Shown: positions 4,657 through 13,594 of the stretch, one piece after another
Numbering within the stretch: the first letter of the stretch is position 1
Layout: each line of letters begins with the position of its first letter
DNA from: Solobacterium sp.
GTDB taxonomy: Bacteria; Bacillota_I; Bacilli_A; Erysipelotrichales; Erysipelotrichaceae
Length of the DNA: 36,644 nt
Direction of reading: 5' to 3'
Assembly: GCA_017515505.1 (NCBI GenBank)
Contig: JAFWFT010000021.1
Location: 1 to 36,644, forward strand
Program-made: the position numbers and the translations under genes
The notes under the pieces: model-generated
What the model was told of the DNA's origin: nothing
The model's input: only the letters and a program-made list of their open reading frames with translations
Databases searched by the model: none

Positions 4657-6609
4657 ATGATACGTGATTTTAGTTTAAAAATAACCCAAAATACAGAACT
4701 CTTTTCATTACTTATCATTATTTTATTTTTTAGTTTTGTAACCTATTTTATATTTAGTCGCATGAAGGAAAAAGAAAAGAAAGAGGATAAAGATTTTCTA
4801 AAGGATTCTCTTCTTCCTTCTTCTAAAAAGACTACGTATTCAAAAAAAGATTATTATTATATTGTTTTATTAACTGGAATTTATGCAATTGTATCTGGTT
4901 GGATGTTAGGAAACCCCACGTTTCCAAACACTACCTGGCAACCTTCCACAACTCCACAAACCATCATCTTAGAACTGCCTGAACAAACTGCCTTTGATAC
5001 AATCTATTTGGTGTATGGAGAAGGTGATAATAATCACGCAACAGATTATCAAATCGGTTTTCATAATCTAAAACTAGAAGGTTCACAAACCTTACAATCT
5101 TGGGAAGAAATTAGTACCTTAGATGATGGAAGTATTTATCAATATACGATGATTGATGGAGTGTATAACTATAAATTTATTCGAATTACTTCTACTAATC
5201 TTTTAGATACAATTAGTGAGATTGGATTTGTATCAAATGAAAGATTCTTACCTATTCAAGTCTATGAAGATGATTATAAAGATAGTATTTATCCTGCTAC
5301 TCTTCTTATAGATGAACAAGCAAAACTTGTCTATCAACCAACGTATTATGATCAAGGTTTTTTTGATGAAATCTATCATCCTAGAAACGCATGGGAAATC
5401 TACAACCAACAATATATGTATGCGCATGTCCATCCATTATTTGGAACCAGTATAATGGCTTTCTTTATGATGATTTTTGGATGCACTCCATTTGGGTGGA
5501 GATTTGGAGGATGGCTTTTTGGAGTATTCCTTGTTCCTTTATTCTATTGTTTAATTAAACTCCTATTTAAGAAAACAAAATTTGCATTTCTTGGAACATT
5601 ATATTTATGTATCGAATTCATGCATCTAACCACCAGTCGTATTGGAACCTTAGAACCCTATAGTGTGTTCTTTATCTTGCTTATGTATTTCTTTATGCTG
5701 AAGTATGATCAAACTAATATTTATGATACTCCTCTAAAAAAGAGAATACTCTATTTATTCTTATGTGGATTAACAATGGCATTGGGTTTCGCCACAAAGT
5801 GGACCGCATGTTATAGTGCGATTGGTCTTGCAATAATATTCTTTGTACATTTATATCGGCAATATAAAGTTACCAAGAATCTTCAAACATATATAAACGA
5901 TCATCCCGAGCTTGATGAAGAAAAGATTATCAAATACAAGAAAATCTATCATCAATTCTATAATGAACTTCCAAACTTATTCTTATTATGTGTTTTATTC
6001 TTCATTTTGATTCCTGTTATCGTTTATTTCTTAGCGTATACGATTACACCTGTTTGGAGGGAAGGATATTCCATTCAGAATGTCATTAATCAAACAATTG
6101 GGATCTATGACTATCATGCACATCTTGAAGCAACGCACCCATATCAAAGCACTTGGTATCAGTGGTTATTAGACTTACGACCCACTTGGTATTATATCGG
6201 TAATGATCAATACGCACATACAATTGCGTGTTTCACACATCCTTTATTAACTTGGTTAGGACTCATCACAATCATCTACACATGCATTGATTTTATAGCA
6301 GAAAGAAATCATCAAGCATTTATTATTTTAGTTGGATACTTAACTGCGTTACTCCCTTGGGTTTTCTTAGTATCCCGCTGTGTCTTTTCGTATCATTTCT
6401 ATCCAACAAGTTTCTTTATGATATTATCCATTGTTTATTTCTTTGATAAATTTCAAAAGCGTTTTCCAGCGTTTATAACATTTATTAAACTATTCACGAT
6501 TGTTTCAATTATTGTTTTTATCCTATACTTACCTGTTTTAACAGGTTGGGGAACCACTTGGGATTATGTACACGCATTGGAGATTTTTGGTTCATGGTAC
6601 TTTGGATAA
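4657..6609 (+). CDS. PMT/GT39-like membrane glycosyltransferase with luminal beta-rich insert
   Basis: A 650-residue polytopic membrane protein. One membrane segment lies near the N-terminus (about 17-34), then a charged cytoplasmic stretch, a second segment (about 67-83) and an extracellular-looking region (about 95-200) that reads like a discoidin/F5-8-type beta domain. The catalytic loop signature FFDEIYHPRNAWE follows, with Asp237-Glu238, then HPLFGT, GATKWTACY-like GFATKWTACY and many further helices. These are hallmarks of the protein O-mannosyltransferase (GT-C, GT39) family, which transfers a sugar from a polyprenyl-phosphate carrier outside the membrane. Acceptor and sugar are unknown. 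Its end overlaps the next gene by 16 bases, so the two are translationally coupled. Confidence 0.82.
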   Translation: MIRDFSLKITQNTELFSLLIIILFFSFVTYFIFSRMKEKEKKEDKDFLKDSLLPSSKKTTYSKKDYYYIVLLTGIYAIVSGWMLGNPTFPNTTWQPSTTPQTIILELPEQTAFDTIYLVYGEGDNNHATDYQIGFHNLKLEGSQTLQSWEEISTLDDGSIYQYTMIDGVYNYKFIRITSTNLLDTISEIGFVSNERFLPIQVYEDDYKDSIYPATLLIDEQAKLVYQPTYYDQGFFDEIYHPRNAWEIYNQQYMYAHVHPLFGTSIMAFFMMIFGCTPFGWRFGGWLFGVFLVPLFYCLIKLLFKKTKFAFLGTLYLCIEFMHLTTSRIGTLEPYSVFFILLMYFFMLKYDQTNIYDTPLKKRILYLFLCGLTMALGFATKWTACYSAIGLAIIFFVHLYRQYKVTKNLQTYINDHPELDEEKIIKYKKIYHQFYNELPNLFLLCVLFFILIPVIVYFLAYTITPVWREGYSIQNVINQTIGIYDYHAHLEATHPYQSTWYQWLLDLRPTWYYIGNDQYAHTIACFTHPLLTWLGLITIIYTCIDFIAERNHQAFIILVGYLTALLPWVFLVSRCVFSYHFYPTSFFMILSIVYFFDKFQKRFPAFITFIKLFTIVSIIVFILYLPVLTGWGTTWDYVHALEIFGSWYFG

Positions 6610-8282
6610 AAAAGAATAAAGTATATTTGATACTATCTCTAGGATTCTCTCTTCTTTTCCTTTTTCCATATCTCTTACAAGATTTTGTGAATATTGAACA
6701 TGATACCTTTTTCCATCTATCTAGAATTGAAGGTTATGCAGGAGCCCTCTCCAATGGGAAAACTTTTCCTACCATCTATCCATATAAGAATAATAACTTT
6801 GGCTATGCATCTGGTTTATTCTATTGTGATTTATTCTTAATACTTCCTTCCCTACTCTATCTACTGAATGTTCCGCTATCAATTTGTTATGTATGTGGTT
6901 TATTTCTTTATACCTATTTCGCTTGTTTAACAATGTTTTGTTTATTAAAGAGGTTCACAAAAGATCTTTTCGTTCAAATTGTTGTATGTTTTGGATATAT
7001 GTTTGCGAATTACCATATAACCAATGTTTATGTTCGAGGTTCTTTAGGGGAAGTGATCGCAATGATTTTTATCCCCATAATTATCACTGGACTCTATGAT
7101 ATTTATGAAGATCATAAGCTGAATCACCTCTATGTATTCGGCTTAACTGGTTTAGCTTTAAGTCATAATATCAGTTTTCTATTTGGTGTAATGATTGTTG
7201 TCATTTATTCTTTCTGTTTCTTAAAAAAGATACAGAAAGATCAGATTTTATATGTATTCAAAGAAACAGGTTGGGCATTTTTATTTACCCTTTTCTTTAT
7301 TCTTCCTATCATCGAACAAACGCAATATCAAACTTTATTTGTGAATCATGAAATGAGTGCCAATATTTTATCTTCGTATACAATTCCATTATGGAAGTAT
7401 TTCGCAAATACAACTATATTTGGATTTGGAGAAAAAACACTTGAGGCAAGTCAAAGTATGCTTGTGAATCCTGGATACTTCCTATCTTTTCTACCTCTTG
7501 GTTACTTTTTAATTCCAAAGAAAAATAAGAACCTTTTTACAGATGTCAGTTTCTTATTAGGATATTTCTTTTATCTTATCGGCTCCGATTTCATTCCATG
7601 GCAATATCTAAATGCTTTCGCAATTATTCAATTTCCATGGCGTAATATTGGAATTTCAATGATTCTTATGCCTATCTCTTGTGTAGTTGTATTAGATGGA
7701 ATCAAAATGAAACAAAAAGATCTATTATTAACAATTCTATTAATTGTCTTAGGACTTGAAGCATTCTATCACGTATCTCCCGTCTTGAGTCGAACATTTG
7801 GAATTACCTCTAAAACGAGTTATACCGATATTACGGAAGGCCGATTGACCGATCCATACTATGGAAACTCTTTCTTCAAACGAGTAGAACTCGCTTCTGC
7901 AAATTATCTGCCAGTAAACTCTCCTGACTTCAGAACCTATTCAACACAAATTAAAGATTCAAATAAGAATGATTTAAATGTTCCCTATGAAAAGAATTAC
8001 CAAACCTTAACCTTTTCTTTAGATGAAAGATATATCAATCAAGAAATCATTCTTCCTATTACAAGTTATAAAGGTTATCAAGTTTATTATCAAAACGATA
8101 AGCTTCCTACTTATACATCTGATAACGGGATGGTTGCATTCGTCGCTAAAGAAAAAGGAAATTATCATTGTACATATGTTGGAACAACCTTCCAACACAT
8201 TACTCGAATCATTTCCTTCACTTCATTTGTCTTATTCATTGTTTTAATGATTAAGAATACATTAGTTTCCTCCACCAAATAA
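6594..8282 (+). CDS. Polytopic membrane protein, PTPS-related / YfhO-like GT-C type
   Basis: About 562 residues from the ATG at 6594, which has GGAG 11 bases upstream. An earlier in-frame start exists only inside the upstream gene. The first helix is followed by DTFFHLSRIEG and a TIYPYKNNNFGYASGLFY loop, then roughly ten more membrane segments and a C-terminal extracellular part of about 130 residues with a final helix. The pattern (acidic residues and His after the first helix, then a YP....G...F loop) resembles the membrane family named 6-pyruvoyl-tetrahydropterin-synthase-related (PF10131) and other GT-C proteins. The pterin name is historical. Coupled to the GT39-like gene, it probably works on the same lipid-linked glycan. 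Its last 21 bases overlap the convergent small membrane gene. Confidence 0.65.
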   Translation: MVLWIKKNKVYLILSLGFSLLFLFPYLLQDFVNIEHDTFFHLSRIEGYAGALSNGKTFPTIYPYKNNNFGYASGLFYCDLFLILPSLLYLLNVPLSICYVCGLFLYTYFACLTMFCLLKRFTKDLFVQIVVCFGYMFANYHITNVYVRGSLGEVIAMIFIPIIITGLYDIYEDHKLNHLYVFGLTGLALSHNISFLFGVMIVVIYSFCFLKKIQKDQILYVFKETGWAFLFTLFFILPIIEQTQYQTLFVNHEMSANILSSYTIPLWKYFANTTIFGFGEKTLEASQSMLVNPGYFLSFLPLGYFLIPKKNKNLFTDVSFLLGYFFYLIGSDFIPWQYLNAFAIIQFPWRNIGISMILMPISCVVVLDGIKMKQKDLLLTILLIVLGLEAFYHVSPVLSRTFGITSKTSYTDITEGRLTDPYYGNSFFKRVELASANYLPVNSPDFRTYSTQIKDSNKNDLNVPYEKNYQTLTFSLDERYINQEIILPITSYKGYQVYYQNDKLPTYTSDNGMVAFVAKEKGNYHCTYVGTTFQHITRIISFTSFVLFIVLMIKNTLVSSTK

Positions 8283-8666: not shown

Positions 8667-10640
8667 TTATTTCTCACTCTCTAAAATATATTCTACACCA
8701 GTGGGTATTAAAGTTGACTCATCGCTTGCATATCCCTCTTGGTAATATTCATAAAGTTTACGCTCATCCGCATATGCATACACAATAAACCTTCTTCTGC
8801 GCTTTTCATCCTCTTTTGCATCAAAGATGTCCTTTGACTCCTTACCTTCTAAAAGTCTTTGATATGCCACCTGTAAATCATCGTATGAGATTGGTTGTTT
8901 CGATATAATTAGAGAATCATGCTTTTCTTGGATTCCTTTCACAAATAGAACCGGATTCTCTCTTCCTAAAAAGCCTTCTTCATCTGGCACATATCCATGA
9001 TCTGCCATGATGATAATCGCAGAATCATCATAAACATCTGCCTCTTTTAGCCTTTCCATATACTCTTTCACAATTGTCATCGAACATTTGATACTCAGTT
9101 CATATGAACCTTCCGAGATTGGAATCGTATTCACTTGCTCATCATATTGAAATGGAACATGTGCACCATCAATATGAATAAAACAGAAACACTTTTCATC
9201 AACTGTTTCAATATCTCTTGTTTTCAGTGCATGATAGAAATCTGCATTGGATGAAAAGAATGCATCTCCATCCGCTTCTTCTCGATTCTTCAATACCGAA
9301 ATCATCCCCGGGTCAGCAAATACCCTTTTTAATGGATATGGCGCATATAAGAACCATACATATCTTCCATTTGTACGTGCAAACTCAAAGATATTCTTGA
9401 TATGATATCGTCCTCTTTGGATATTCGAGAAGCGGAAAACATGATCACTATCATATGTTAAATCTGCTTCATACATCCCTAAGTCATAAGATCGATTTTC
9501 TAATGTTTTTAGTAATTCAGATTCATCCATCGCTTTTGTCTCAAATGAAATGAAATCTTCTTGATTCTCGTTCCATATTCCAGTAAGAATAAATGGAATC
9601 GAATATTTCGTAAAAGGATATGCTGCAACCGTATCTGGATAAAAGGTAAAATCACTAAATATTTCTTTATACTCTTGTCTTTCCCCTTCAATTAATTGAT
9701 GAACCTTTTCCGCATCGACAGCATCGATGATGAAAATGATAAAGTTCTGATTTGTTGAATATGTAAATAGATTCTCTTTACTCACCACAACTGGACGTTT
9801 TGTAAAGAATCCATTAGAAATAATTCCATTTAATAAAAGTGTGATTACGCATACACAAATTAATAGTATCGATATCGCATTCGACAAAAAGACAAAGACA
9901 TTTTTATTTAGCTTAATAAAGGAATATGAAACTAGAACAATGACAATTGTCCATACCACAATGGATGATAAGGATCCAAATGAAAAAGTATTCCATTGAA
10001 ATGTGCTCCCATCCAAATGAGGCAAATCACTGAGTAAGAAATTTCCTTGGATGAAAGAAGCTATTAACAATATCAGTGCAACACAAATTCCAAATAAATA
10101 TACTTTCTCATGTATTTTCTTACTGATTAAGAAAACAATGATACCAACTATCAAACCAACCACAAACATCAATAGGATGGTTGGTAGTATTGCGTATAAA
10201 TCATATCGGAATTCATGTATATTTGTGAAATATAACTGTAATGGTGCATAAAACATCCATAAACAACTTAACGCTATACTGATGAGTATTCCACTTTTTA
10301 AACTGATTGGATGACTAGAAGTAGATGTTTTTTTGAAAAATGCCTTTTCTTCAATATATTGACTCTTTTCTTTATCACTTCCATGATAAAGATCATTTCC
10401 TTCTTCAACTTTATCCCCACTAAAATCAAGATGATATTTTTTCTCTAAGAACCTTTTGATTTTCCGCCAGTATAATCCAATAAAAGTTCCTAACGCAATT
10501 GCCATTCCTGCAATTGTTTGTATCGCATAAGTCATAACAGAAGGATCAACATATGCTTCTATTCTTTTTGTCGACATCAAGAAAAAACAACAAATAAAAT
10601 ATAGATACTTAATTATTCTCTTCATGACGTTTTTTCCCAT
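8667..10640 (-). CDS. Membrane-anchored AlkP-superfamily (sulfatase/phosphoglycerol transferase-like) enzyme
   Basis: A 657-residue protein. The N-terminus has a signal-like helix, then AYVDPSVMTYAIQ and a second helix, resembling the short 'YxDPGTGSxxxQ' membrane module seen beside surface-polymer enzymes. Five or six further helices follow (about 115-275). The C-terminal extracytoplasmic catalytic domain has alkaline-phosphatase-superfamily features: FIIDAVD (Asp306), a putative Thr nucleophile (Thr344) in PFTKYSIPF, HIDGAHVPF (His489, His494) and ADHGYVPD (Asp547, His548). Relatives include LtaS and EptA-type phospho-alcohol transferases, so it may add or remove a phospho-group on a surface polymer. 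The start at 10640 overlaps the upstream fusion gene by 32 bases; Met at 10625 is an alternative. Confidence 0.75.
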   Translation of the reverse strand: MGKNVMKRIIKYLYFICCFFLMSTKRIEAYVDPSVMTYAIQTIAGMAIALGTFIGLYWRKIKRFLEKKYHLDFSGDKVEEGNDLYHGSDKEKSQYIEEKAFFKKTSTSSHPISLKSGILISIALSCLWMFYAPLQLYFTNIHEFRYDLYAILPTILLMFVVGLIVGIIVFLISKKIHEKVYLFGICVALILLIASFIQGNFLLSDLPHLDGSTFQWNTFSFGSLSSIVVWTIVIVLVSYSFIKLNKNVFVFLSNAISILLICVCVITLLLNGIISNGFFTKRPVVVSKENLFTYSTNQNFIIFIIDAVDAEKVHQLIEGERQEYKEIFSDFTFYPDTVAAYPFTKYSIPFILTGIWNENQEDFISFETKAMDESELLKTLENRSYDLGMYEADLTYDSDHVFRFSNIQRGRYHIKNIFEFARTNGRYVWFLYAPYPLKRVFADPGMISVLKNREEADGDAFFSSNADFYHALKTRDIETVDEKCFCFIHIDGAHVPFQYDEQVNTIPISEGSYELSIKCSMTIVKEYMERLKEADVYDDSAIIIMADHGYVPDEEGFLGRENPVLFVKGIQEKHDSLIISKQPISYDDLQVAYQRLLEGKESKDIFDAKEDEKRRRRFIVYAYADERKLYEYYQEGYASDESTLIPTGVEYILESEK

Positions 10641-12681
10641 TACATCTTTCTAATACACGACTTGCGATATAGTCCCCTCCAATATGACTACTTTCATTTA
10701 GATGGTAGACTTCTTCATGAACAAGTTGTTCAATAACATCATGATATGACTCTGCGTTTTCAATTAGTTCTTTTATACTTTCATAGGTTTTATCTAGATG
10801 TTCTAAATCCAAAGATTTTCCAACAATATTTCGAATCCGAATATTAAATGGTTCAACCTGAATATCTTTATAATCAGGATTCATTACTTTCATTGGAGTA
10901 TCAATGAATAATACTGGTTTACAGGTTGTAAATGCATATTCAACGGCAATATCTGACCAGTCAGAGATTAGTGCATCTGCCTCAAAAACGGTACTATTAG
11001 AACTAAAATCAGTTTGAATGATGATTTCTGGATTATTTTGATATTTAGTTTTAAGTGATTCCATCTTTTCTGGCATTAACCGTACTTGTTGAGGATGTGG
11101 ACGCACAATGATTTGATATTCATGCCCTTTTAGATTATCTAATAAATCTTCTAAGCATAAATCTACGATGTTATCTTTCTGCCAAGAAGGCGCAATAAGA
11201 ATCGTTTTCTTCGCATTCTTTGTATCGAGTTTTGCGTAGGATTCCCTCATCTCATCTAATAGTGGATACCCACATTCCACAATGGTCTTTTTTGGTAAAT
11301 GATAATACTCTTCTTGGGCAAGAATCTCTTCTTTTTGATTCTTTGCAGAAACAAAGACAGTATCAAAATGATCAAGTGCACCTTTACGATAAAGCAAATT
11401 GACTGACCCTATCCCATGTTGCACATTAATATACTCAATATCTTTACGTACATAACTTCTTTTAATTTGATATGTTTCTAAATCAGGCATTGTCATAACA
11501 ACAATATCTGCATCCATCTTCATCATCAACGTAATTAACGTAGTGGAATCAATATAATATGGTTTAATTTGCTCTACCTTCTTTGCGATTTCAAAGATTT
11601 GATCATTTGGATCACTTGTAATATAGTGAATCGGAATATTTGTATACTCTAATAGATATTCGATAAAACCTTTAAAATACTTGTAGAAACCACTACCTTC
11701 CGAATAAAATACGAGATGCTTATTATTAATAGAAAAAAACCGATTATAATCATTTTTAACACGTTTCGTGTCAATCTTCTCTTTTTTTGAGTTTCCTTCT
11801 AATTCATTTAAAGTTTGTTTTGTTGCATTTAACGCTTCAAAGTCAATGTGCTTCTTTGGATCAGCCATTAAGTTACATATATATTGAATTAAAATCGCTA
11901 ACAAATTACTCGCAACCCAATATAAACCAACCCCAGCAGGAACAAAATAACCTAAGTACAAAGATAGAGCAATCGAAAAAATCATCATTCCATACTTATT
12001 AAATGTCGTTTGCTCACTTTGTAGGACATTCATACGATTTTGTGCAAAAGCTAATAACCAGGCACTAATACCTGCATAAATTGGTACAAGTAATGCTTTT
12101 CCTTTATGAATAGCCGCAATCCAACTTAAATCATATCCCAAGAAATACATATCTAATTTTTGAACTTCATTTAAAGTTTCTTGTTGAATAATATCTTTAT
12201 ATGTATCAATACCATGAATCTTTTGAATATCATTAATCGTACTTAATTCAACATAATTATTATTAGGATTAATCGTTTCATTTAAAGAAACAGCACGTTC
12301 AATCATTGCGCTTCTTTCGCTTTGTGGAATCTGAAGAATATATTCCATGGGATGATAAATAACTTCAACAACACCCATTAATAAAACAATTTGAATGATT
12401 AAAGGAATTAAAGATCCTAATGGATTGTATTTATTCTTTTTATAAAGCTTTGTTTGTTCATCCGCAATGGCATCTTTATCTCCAAAAAAATCAATTTTTA
12501 TTTGATTAATTGCAGGATACATTTTTACCATTTTGATTGAGTTCAATTGAAGCCAATAAGATAGAGGAAACAAAAAGATTTTGGTAATAACAGTAAAAAG
12601 AACGATAGCTCCTCCATAGTTTCCTATCATTCTATAGCAAATATTCATAATGTAGCCAAAAAGCAACGCTAAATACTTCAT
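10609..12681 (-). CDS. Fusion: YidC/Oxa1 insertase domain + CDP-glycerol glycerophosphotransferase domain
   Basis: Start chosen at ATG 12679-12681 because AGAGGG lies 4 bases upstream; an in-frame TTG at 12732 has no site. Of 690 residues, about 1-275 form a YidC/Oxa1-type membrane module: NYGGAIVLFTVITKIFLFPLS with a basic residue (Lys34) at the usual groove-Arg position, a charged cytoplasmic loop (KMYPAINQIK...LYKKNKYNPLG) and later helices ending with GVGLYWVASNL. After a charged linker (about 285-320) comes a TagB/TagF-like domain (about 320-680, PF04464 type) with QHGIGS (421-426), APSW, RPHP (527-530) and SDWSD (573-577), the two His being the usual active-site positions. It should sit in the membrane with the transferase in the cytoplasm, using a CDP-alcohol donor. 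I know of no standard protein with this domain order. Confidence 0.85.
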   Translation of the reverse strand: MKYLALLFGYIMNICYRMIGNYGGAIVLFTVITKIFLFPLSYWLQLNSIKMVKMYPAINQIKIDFFGDKDAIADEQTKLYKKNKYNPLGSLIPLIIQIVLLMGVVEVIYHPMEYILQIPQSERSAMIERAVSLNETINPNNNYVELSTINDIQKIHGIDTYKDIIQQETLNEVQKLDMYFLGYDLSWIAAIHKGKALLVPIYAGISAWLLAFAQNRMNVLQSEQTTFNKYGMMIFSIALSLYLGYFVPAGVGLYWVASNLLAILIQYICNLMADPKKHIDFEALNATKQTLNELEGNSKKEKIDTKRVKNDYNRFFSINNKHLVFYSEGSGFYKYFKGFIEYLLEYTNIPIHYITSDPNDQIFEIAKKVEQIKPYYIDSTTLITLMMKMDADIVVMTMPDLETYQIKRSYVRKDIEYINVQHGIGSVNLLYRKGALDHFDTVFVSAKNQKEEILAQEEYYHLPKKTIVECGYPLLDEMRESYAKLDTKNAKKTILIAPSWQKDNIVDLCLEDLLDNLKGHEYQIIVRPHPQQVRLMPEKMESLKTKYQNNPEIIIQTDFSSNSTVFEADALISDWSDIAVEYAFTTCKPVLFIDTPMKVMNPDYKDIQVEPFNIRIRNIVGKSLDLEHLDKTYESIKELIENAESYHDVIEQLVHEEVYHLNESSHIGGDYIASRVLERCNGKKRHEENN

Positions 12682-12728: not shown

Positions 12729-12918
12729 TCAAAGAGATGATAGTTGCTTTGTATCATACAAATATTGATACTTCTGTAGTTGATAGTAAAAAGTAAAACC
12801 GATTGCATCATTTCCCTTAAAGATTGGCTCAATACGATTAATCTGTGCTTCTTGAATATGAAGTTGATGAGCGACATCTTTGATGATTTGTGATTTTGTA
12901 TCTGTTATATAACTATAA
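12729..12918 (-). pseudogene. Frameshifted tail of the LicC-like gene, resembling the start of a choline-kinase-type domain
   Basis: Directly after the LicC-like open frame, the next frame over encodes DYSYITDTKSQIIKDVAHQL, then INRIEPIFKGNDAIGFTF and a TGA stop at 12729-12731. This fits the linker and first strands seen in natural fusions of LicC-type nucleotidyltransferases to aminoglycoside/choline-kinase-type phosphotransferases (...D.SYI.NT.S.I...I.PIKKG.TN.SF). The span 12729-13594 is one base short of a whole number of codons, so restoring one base (in TTGATTATAG) would give a 288-residue protein. The kinase part stops after about 55 residues, so it is truncated in any case. The match is from memory and needs a profile search. 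Confidence 0.55.
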
Positions 12919-13594
12919 TCAATCTTCTTAATTCATCGATTGAATCAAATTCATAAATACAATTAGGTTCATACCGTCTAATTTTCATAGGAAGTTCATC
13001 AATATGATCAATATAAATCGATTCCCATAGTTTCGAATATGTCTCCGGATGATTATAAACCTTATCTAGAACAGATAAAAACTTCCTCGAAAAATCCTTG
13101 GACCAAAATGTATGACCTAACATAACCCAAGAATCATGCCCTCCAATTGTCACCTTTTGAATCACATCATTCGAATCTACTTCAACACACCATTCCTTTG
13201 TTGCTCCATCCACAAATACCGTTGAATAGAAAGAATCATCAACTTCTGGTTCAAATGGATTAACAGAATAATAGTTATCAGAAGAACAAACATAGGAATT
13301 ATTTAAGTATTCTCTAGCCGCATGAATCGAAGAATGATTATTGCGAATATAAAAATCATTGTTATGAACAAGAATTACTCCAAACATATCTTTTAGATAT
13401 GAAAGCATTTCATGTTTATAACCCGTCACGACTACAATCTCTTGAATACCTTTTTCTTGAAGTTGTCTGATTTGTCTTTCGATTAGGATTTCCCCTTTTA
13501 CAGATACGAGACACTTCGGTATTTCATGAGAAAGTGGTGAGAAGCGAGAAGAGACTCCCGCCGCCATAATAATTGCGTTATCAACCTTTACCAT
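12905..13594 (-). CDS. licC: LicC-like CTP:phosphocholine (phospho-alcohol) cytidylyltransferase
   Basis: A 229-residue nucleotidyltransferase. The nucleotide-binding start is IIMAAGVSSRFSPL followed by PKCLV (the G-x-G-x-R...PK signature), then ERQIRQLQEKGI, VVVTGYKHEML, SSDNYYSVNPF and the late segments STVFV..ATKEWCVEV, MLGHTFW and IYEFDSIDELRRL. The order and spacing match pneumococcal LicC, also about 229 residues, which makes CDP-choline for decorating teichoic acid. The true substrate could be another phospho-alcohol. It starts 2 bases after the pheT stop, so it is read from the pheST transcript, and it precedes the glycerophosphotransferase fusion that should use a CDP-alcohol. The last residues (LIIVI) are probably out of frame; see the adjoining tail. 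Confidence 0.8.
   Translation of the reverse strand: MVKVDNAIIMAAGVSSRFSPLSHEIPKCLVSVKGEILIERQIRQLQEKGIQEIVVVTGYKHEMLSYLKDMFGVILVHNNDFYIRNNHSSIHAAREYLNNSYVCSSDNYYSVNPFEPEVDDSFYSTVFVDGATKEWCVEVDSNDVIQKVTIGGHDSWVMLGHTFWSKDFSRKFLSVLDKVYNHPETYSKLWESIYIDHIDELPMKIRRYEPNCIYEFDSIDELRRLIIVI

Follow-up and report, generated by a model that had tools for sequence, protein, structure and literature searches.

A YidC insertase fold fused to a TagF-fold phosphotransferase, with its companion helix, points to a possible surface-decoration machine in Bacillota

In a 36,644-nucleotide stretch of DNA from Solobacterium sp., a bacterium of gut or rumen (contig JAFWFT010000021.1; hereafter the window), one gene encodes a protein that joins a YidC/Oxa1 insertase core to a TagF-fold phosphotransferase domain. 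Because this join is kept in dozens of species, with its active sites intact and with a small membrane helix, the DPS element, nearly always adjoining, the fusion and its helix neighbour point to a machine, so far unrecognised, that would make and move choline-like or phosphonate-like groups decorating the cell surface. On our reading, which we regard as plausible but still tentative, the fusion is a transferase working across the membrane: it would make a small zwitterionic phospho- or phosphono-amino-alcohol group and move it to the other side.

Two halves in one open frame

The initial annotation had described an uninterrupted frame running from a YidC-like membrane module into a TagB/TagF-like transferase, and this is borne out: the frame codes for 690 residues, and both Pfam domains score above their cut-offs, PF02096 at residues 22–270 (E-value 7.2e-30; 104.5 bits against a cut-off of 35) and PF04464 at residues 315–593 (E-value 5.2e-16; 59 bits against 22.1). 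NCBIfam likewise assigns the N-terminal part to yidC_oxa1_cterm. In an AlphaFold2 model built from 61 homologues, with a mean predicted local distance difference test score (pLDDT) of 93, residues 1–281 match the structure of B. halodurans YidC (3wo7; Z 19.1, root-mean-square deviation 2.4 Å over 200 residues), so that the five-transmembrane (TM) YidC core fold is present together with the PF02096 match. The C-terminal half matches TagF (3l7l, Z 21.8) and TarL (8va1, Z 20.7), also by Foldseek.

Scanning one genome per species yielded 159 relatives, of which the best 80 were kept; locus counts given below are over 81 loci. Nearly all of these best 80 of 159 matched over both halves; the match of locus L103 spans residues 176–686 only. 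The same fused order is found in other genomes, including those of the isolates NK3D112, NC2008 and 1XD42-76, which rules out an assembly chimera in the window. Sixty relatives, 42–71% identical to the window protein, were aligned with it to give the 61 sequences used for the conservation counts.

The basic groove residue picked out in the initial annotation, Lys34, aligns to R366 of E. coli YidC (profile position 4 corresponding to chain position 336), which is the groove arginine of that protein (PMC8920935), and it is Lys in 60 and Arg in one of the 61 aligned fusions. Y254 and W255, the counterparts of E. coli Y516 and Y517, are kept as Y and W throughout (61/61). The Arg/Lys of the YidC groove is said to be strictly conserved (PMC8920935). 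In the window's family, Q or N stands at this place in the majority of housekeeping YidC proteins (L015, L027, L123, L124 and others), which makes the unbroken K/R of the fusions notable.

In the transferase half, both histidines of the motifs proposed earlier as QHG and RPHP, H422 and H529, are invariant; the first motif itself did not hold up, Q421 being kept in only 8 of the 61 sequences, with P the commonest residue. D574-W575-S576 is invariant as well. The YidC half has a mean pairwise identity of 51% and the transferase half one of 53%, so that both are equally constrained. Both halves look functional, and the earlier view that both are intact is upheld by the groove residue and the invariant transferase residues.

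The relation of the transferase half to TagF is one of fold only, with no sequence relation detectable in the PDB. Thirty of 31 relatives' domains match PF04464 at E ≤ 0.01, and a profile of the 31 transferase domains finds no TagF chain of the PDB at E ≤ 10. With TagF, TagB and TarL (PF04464, the CDP-alditol phosphotransferases) the fusion shares the fold, two catalytic His motifs and a cytoplasmic, cytidine diphosphate (CDP)-activated donor. Identity lies at fold level (17–19%), however, and only the fusion carries a YidC core; moreover, where the TagF/TagB/TarL family uses glycerol or ribitol, the genes near the fusion suggest choline, ethanolamine or 2-aminoethylphosphonate (AEP).

A companion helix, an external enzyme and donor genes

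Missed by the initial annotation, the DPS element is a signal-peptide/helix element with the consensus AYIDPSVMTYxIQAxAGVxIAxGAAxGIYWRKAKKK (core AYIDPSVMTYxIQAxAG). It adjoins the fusion in 75 of 81 loci, and this short membrane element can now be named as the companion of the fusion. In 57 loci it is a separate small open reading frame (ORF) on the same strand, at a median gap of 4 nt, and in most of the other loci that have the element it forms the N-terminus of a sulfatase-fold gene. The latter is the case in the window, where it occupies residues 23–70 of that gene. The helix has a short N-tail with an invariant Asp, one TM segment and positive charges after it; in most copies, a segment resembling a signal peptide takes the place of a bare N-tail. 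No Pfam family scored above the cut-off in the four members scanned. Among 60 genomes of the window's genus, the element occurs in 20/20 with the fusion and in 1/40 without it (Fisher p 5e-15; the genomes are related, so that p is not a clean probability). The sole exception found to this co-occurrence is genome G118, which has DPS-sulfatase genes without a nearby fusion. At L082 (8215–8679) and 18 other loci, the DPS gene has a small gene for an S26-type signal peptidase in its vicinity; this peptidase may process the DPS signal peptide.

The sulfatase-fold gene of the window, likewise overlooked by the initial annotation, matches PF00884 (E-value 3.8e-6), and its product was modelled (pLDDT 87.5) as a signal helix, the DPS helix (residues 33–69), five TM helices (115–274) and an ectodomain of alkaline-phosphatase fold. 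The fold matches MCR-1, PbgA and EptA, and LtaS is matched by profile (1.3e-8). Since T344, at the nucleophile position, is kept in 42/43 sequences and D306, D547 and H548 in 43/43, family knowledge predicts that this enzyme is not a sulfatase but transfers phospho groups by means of a Thr nucleophile. Like LtaS, EptA, MCR-1 and PbgA, it has five TM helices followed by an external domain with that nucleophile; unlike them, it has a YidC-TagF protein and the DPS helix as linked, in some cases fused, partners. A sulfatase-fold gene is present in 56/81 loci.

Domain rearrangements tie the YidC, transferase and sulfatase-fold parts together. In 5/81 loci the sulfatase-fold transferase is fused to the YidC-transferase on one side or the other, giving YidC-transferase-sulfatase chains (L063, L067, L087, L100) and a sulfatase-YidC-transferase chain (L086; also in L175, outside the 81). 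In both fusion orders, TM counts and hydropathy put the transferase on the inner and the sulfatase part on the outer side of the membrane. In a distant YidC clade (L175–L179, L182), the fusion partner is a sulfatase-fold domain alone, the transferase being absent from the chain; three of the six loci (L176, L178, L179) have a stand-alone PF04464-like gene nearby. One Lachnospiraceae metagenome-assembled genome (MAG) holds several YidC-sulfatase copies of the distant clade.

Just upstream of the fusion in the window lies a LicC-like cytidylyltransferase gene, whose best PDB match, with similarity over the full length, is LicC (1jyk, E-value 1.3e-42, residues 6–225), against an E-value of 2.8e-10 for PntC-AEPT (6pd1). 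The listed ORF (12905–13594, 229 residues) lacks a C-terminal stretch of about 65 residues that is read in another frame; this tail resembles the C-terminus of an unbroken relative (L032), and the LicC-like core is intact. Across the loci, a choline kinase domain occurs in 10/81, seven times in one ORF with the cytidylyltransferase, while phosphonate genes (phosphoenolpyruvate (PEP) mutase, phosphonopyruvate decarboxylase Ppd or PhnW) occur in 12/81 and a CobD-like aminotransferase domain, fused to a cytidylyltransferase in the cases examined, in 11/81. The cytidylyltransferase stands alone in 16/81 loci, and one has only a BCCT transporter as a donor-type gene. A donor pathway, also passed over in the initial annotation, is readable in 33/81 loci and leads to CDP-choline, to a CDP-ethanolamine-like compound or to CMP-aminoethylphosphonate, not to CDP-glycerol; for the CobD-like fusions, we infer CDP-ethanolamine from the family, which is threonine-phosphate decarboxylase-like. 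NTP_transf_3 is the commonest neighbour family (19 of 107 neighbour ORFs, a set from which most sulfatase-fold genes were excluded), and no CDP-glycerol synthase (TagD) is among the 25 families shown for these ORFs, the rest of the genome not having been searched. Mapped on the transferase tree, the choline, CobD-like and AEP labels change into one another 12 times or more, as if the three donor types were interchangeable. Because all readable donor types carry aminoethyl-type groups, the gene content suggests a transferase for an aminoethyl-type phospho/phosphono chemotype.

The lic system of Streptococcus and Haemophilus (LicA-LicC-LicD) similarly pairs a choline kinase with a LicC-type cytidylyltransferase to supply CDP-choline for the surface, but here the transferase has a TagF fold, is fused to YidC and comes with an extra external sulfatase-fold transferase and the DPS helix. 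No LicD family (PF04991) protein was found in the window's MAG, which is 71% complete. The Pnt pathway (PEP mutase, Ppd, PhnW, PntC) shares its donor-making genes with 12 fusion loci, and its product CMP-AEP serves cell-surface molecules (PMC6697681). The neighbours named for the Pnt pathway are LicD-like phosphotransferases or glycosyltransferases (PMC6697681). The later steps of phosphonate surface tailoring are called enigmatic in that work (PMC6697681), in the text of which the words CDP-glycerol and insertase do not occur.

A possible route across the membrane and its alternatives

The fusion and its conservation, the retention of active site and groove, and the linkage and rearrangements of the parts are seen directly, and on them a route can be sketched. 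The transferred group would be phosphocholine in the window, by way of the LicC-like neighbour, and phosphoethanolamine-like or 2-aminoethylphosphonate in relatives. By homology, a neighbouring enzyme would make the donor, CDP-X, in the cytoplasm; the cytoplasmic TagF-fold domain, with its two His residues, would pass phospho-X from it to a putative membrane-held lipid or lipid-linked acceptor; the YidC core would act as a translocator of the groove type, giving the charged headgroup a path over the bilayer; and the sulfatase-fold enzyme would take phospho-X outside with its Thr nucleophile, as in EptA and LtaS, and place it on a surface glycan. More speculatively, the DPS helix would be a dedicated subunit on the YidC core, its invariant Asp possibly paired with Lys34.

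CDP-X is unable to cross the membrane, and EptA and LtaS use phospholipid donors, phosphatidylethanolamine in the case of EptA. Since CDP-X stays inside and the sulfatase-fold transferase lies outside, a lipid carrier that is charged with the group on the inner face and gives it up on the outer face would join both, and the YidC module would be rightly placed in this model to move it. Of two earlier proposals, a lipid-linked substrate in the YidC groove or a coupling of membrane protein insertion to polymer attachment, the former is the better; in vitro, E. coli YidC, yeast Oxa1 and Get1 all act as phospholipid scramblases (PMC10491306). In a more specific form of our own reading, which we hold as possible but somewhat doubtful, YidC-TagF and the DPS helix would be a flippase-transferase that makes a lipid-linked phospho-amino-alcohol on the inner side and delivers it through the groove to the external sulfatase-fold transferase, at times with all of these on one chain.

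Several points weigh against this route. The window's cytidylyltransferase gene is frame-broken near position 12923, be it really or by assembly error, and no choline kinase was found in the window's 71% complete MAG. No donor gene lies within the flanks in 31/81 loci, and no sulfatase-fold gene in those of 25/81. The repeated donor switches fit a relaxed donor preference or gene exchange and do not prove the substrate. Each half of the model is confident, but the mutual orientation of the domains is uncertain (predicted template modelling score 0.62). The acceptor is putative, and both catalysis and flipping are inferred.

The YidC core could instead serve only as an anchor or docking platform for the cytoplasmic decoration of lipid-linked glycan precursors that an ordinary flippase or ATP-binding cassette (ABC) transporter then exports. 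It is established that TagF-type enzymes are peripheral and need membrane attachment, and some loci do hold other export genes, for example a Wzt-type ABC ATPase and a glycosyltransferase at L183. Yet an anchor needs no groove, and the positive charge at K34 and the Y254-W255 pair are kept in all 61 sequences; the YidC half is conserved as much as the enzyme half, and sulfatase-fold enzymes are likewise fused to YidC modules. We consider the anchor reading unlikely.

Less likely again is that the YidC core is a private insertase or chaperone for the DPS helix and the five-TM sulfatase-fold enzyme, the complex assembling where they are inserted. With its short N-tail, invariant Asp, single TM segment and positive charges, the DPS helix resembles a YidC substrate, its place beside the fusion in 75/81 loci fits such a role, and in B. 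subtilis YidC acidic N-tails and the groove arginine matter (PMC8920935). The housekeeping YidC present in 14/16 fusion genomes could insert both partners, however, and the signal peptide-like segment of most DPS copies is not a bare N-tail.

That the fusion is a true TagF-like polymerase of glycerol-phosphate-type teichoic acid, its groove holding or exporting the chain and an LtaS-like enzyme attaching or modifying it, is the least probable, for although PF04464 scores above its cut-off, TagF is the best fold match and the partner gene matches the LtaS family, the transferase domain has no sequence-level match to TagF, and TagD is not among the shown neighbours, where LicC/PntC-type cytidylyltransferases, choline kinases and phosphonate enzymes recur. 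The name glycerophosphotransferase and the growing phosphopolymer of the initial annotation are accordingly not borne out by this fold-only likeness and by readable donor genes for choline, ethanolamine-like and AEP groups.

If the proposed flippase-transferase is real, it would be a new class of envelope machine, in which an insertase fold has become specialised in translocating a lipid or polymer, and to our knowledge the first YidC relative to work mainly on a substrate other than protein. It would also provide a natural case for insertases as lipid scramblases (PMC10491306). How phosphocholine, phosphoethanolamine and phosphonates are exported to the surface of Gram-positive gut bacteria is poorly known. 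With a conserved gene set in which a TagF-fold enzyme is joined to an insertase fold, and this fold in turn to an external transferase, the question can be put to the test in isolates that are open to cultivation.

Spread, phylogeny and surroundings

The fusion shares with YidC, Oxa1 and Alb3 insertases a five-TM core, a cytoplasmic C1 hairpin and a groove with a positive residue. It differs from them in that its YidC domains form one clade apart from stand-alone YidC (Shimodaira–Hasegawa-like approximate likelihood ratio test 99), in its C-terminal enzyme, in being accessory and in coexisting with a housekeeping YidC. A stand-alone YidC was found in 14 of 16 fusion genomes, the two without being MAGs, and a general insertase role is therefore unlikely; in the window's own 71% complete MAG, only the fusion was seen. 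Locus L183 was considered as a stand-alone relative of the fused YidC, but a DDE transposase sits where the enzyme half is expected, and it was read as a broken copy.

By their labels, the hosts belong to Erysipelotrichaceae, Lachnospiraceae, Oscillospiraceae and other Bacillota. The fusion occurs in 20/60 genomes of the window's genus, in 0/391 other sampled genomes of its phylum and in 8/200 genomes of the family of a Lachnospiraceae isolate, and family-level and order-level samples held no other. These empty samples first suggested a misbinned contig, which was ruled out: the neighbouring PheT is 66–80% identical in most of 12 sampled genus genomes (30% in one), and this likeness, with the fusion in a third of the genus genomes, indicates that the contig fits the genus and that the fusion gene is accessory. 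By its sequences, the fusion is an evolutionarily stable family, accessory and patchy. Carriage on plasmids or viruses was rejected, since plasmids gave only YidC-like matches of 26–28% and viral contigs a single C-terminal match. At locus L108, the fusion (identity 55%) sits in a genome of 0.7 Mb that bears the label Candidatus Saccharibacteria, through gene transfer or as a mislabelled MAG.

A literature search found no paper on the fusion, a weak absence given that subscription literature lay mostly outside its reach. The component folds are known; the arrangement, the DPS element and the link to choline and phosphonate donor genes appear new.

Table 1. Positions of the features discussed, in the window unless a locus is named.
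Feature	Position	Strand	Remark
YidC-TagF fusion gene	12681..10609	-	ATG at 12681, stop at 10609; 690 aa, single open frame
YidC/Oxa1 core, residues 1–281	11839..12681	-	PF02096 match and fold match
Groove residue K34	codon 12582-12580	-	gap-free alignment to E. coli YidC R366
TagF-fold phosphotransferase domain, residues 311–690	10612..11751	-	PF04464 match, fold and conservation
H422	codon 11418-11416	-	invariant in 61 aligned
H529 (in R527-P528-H529-P530)	codon 11097-11095	-	invariant in 61 aligned
DPS element (AYVDPSVMTYAIQTIAGMAIALGTFIGLYWRK)	10431..10574	-	N-terminal part of the sulfatase-fold gene
Sulfatase-fold transferase gene	8667..10640	-	next gene, same strand; overlaps fusion gene by 32 bases
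LicC-like cytidylyltransferase gene	12729..13594	-	just upstream of fusion; frame break ~12923
Large membrane protein, PMT-like (protein O-mannosyltransferase family)	4657-6609	+	convergent with the operon
Second large membrane protein	6594-8282	+	convergent with the operon
Distant YidC-sulfatase fusion, L175	11091-13847		
Distant YidC-sulfatase fusion, L178	3439-6405	-	
Distant YidC-sulfatase fusion, L179	3143-5908	-	
Distant YidC-sulfatase fusions, L176, L177, L182			

In a group of Oscillospiraceae/Ruminococcus/Clostridia loci (L068, L073, L075, L079, L081, L083, L085), the fusion has a PGA_cap capsule-synthesis gene immediately upstream, encoded on the other strand. The two large membrane proteins convergent with the operon in the window may be part of surface glycosylation.

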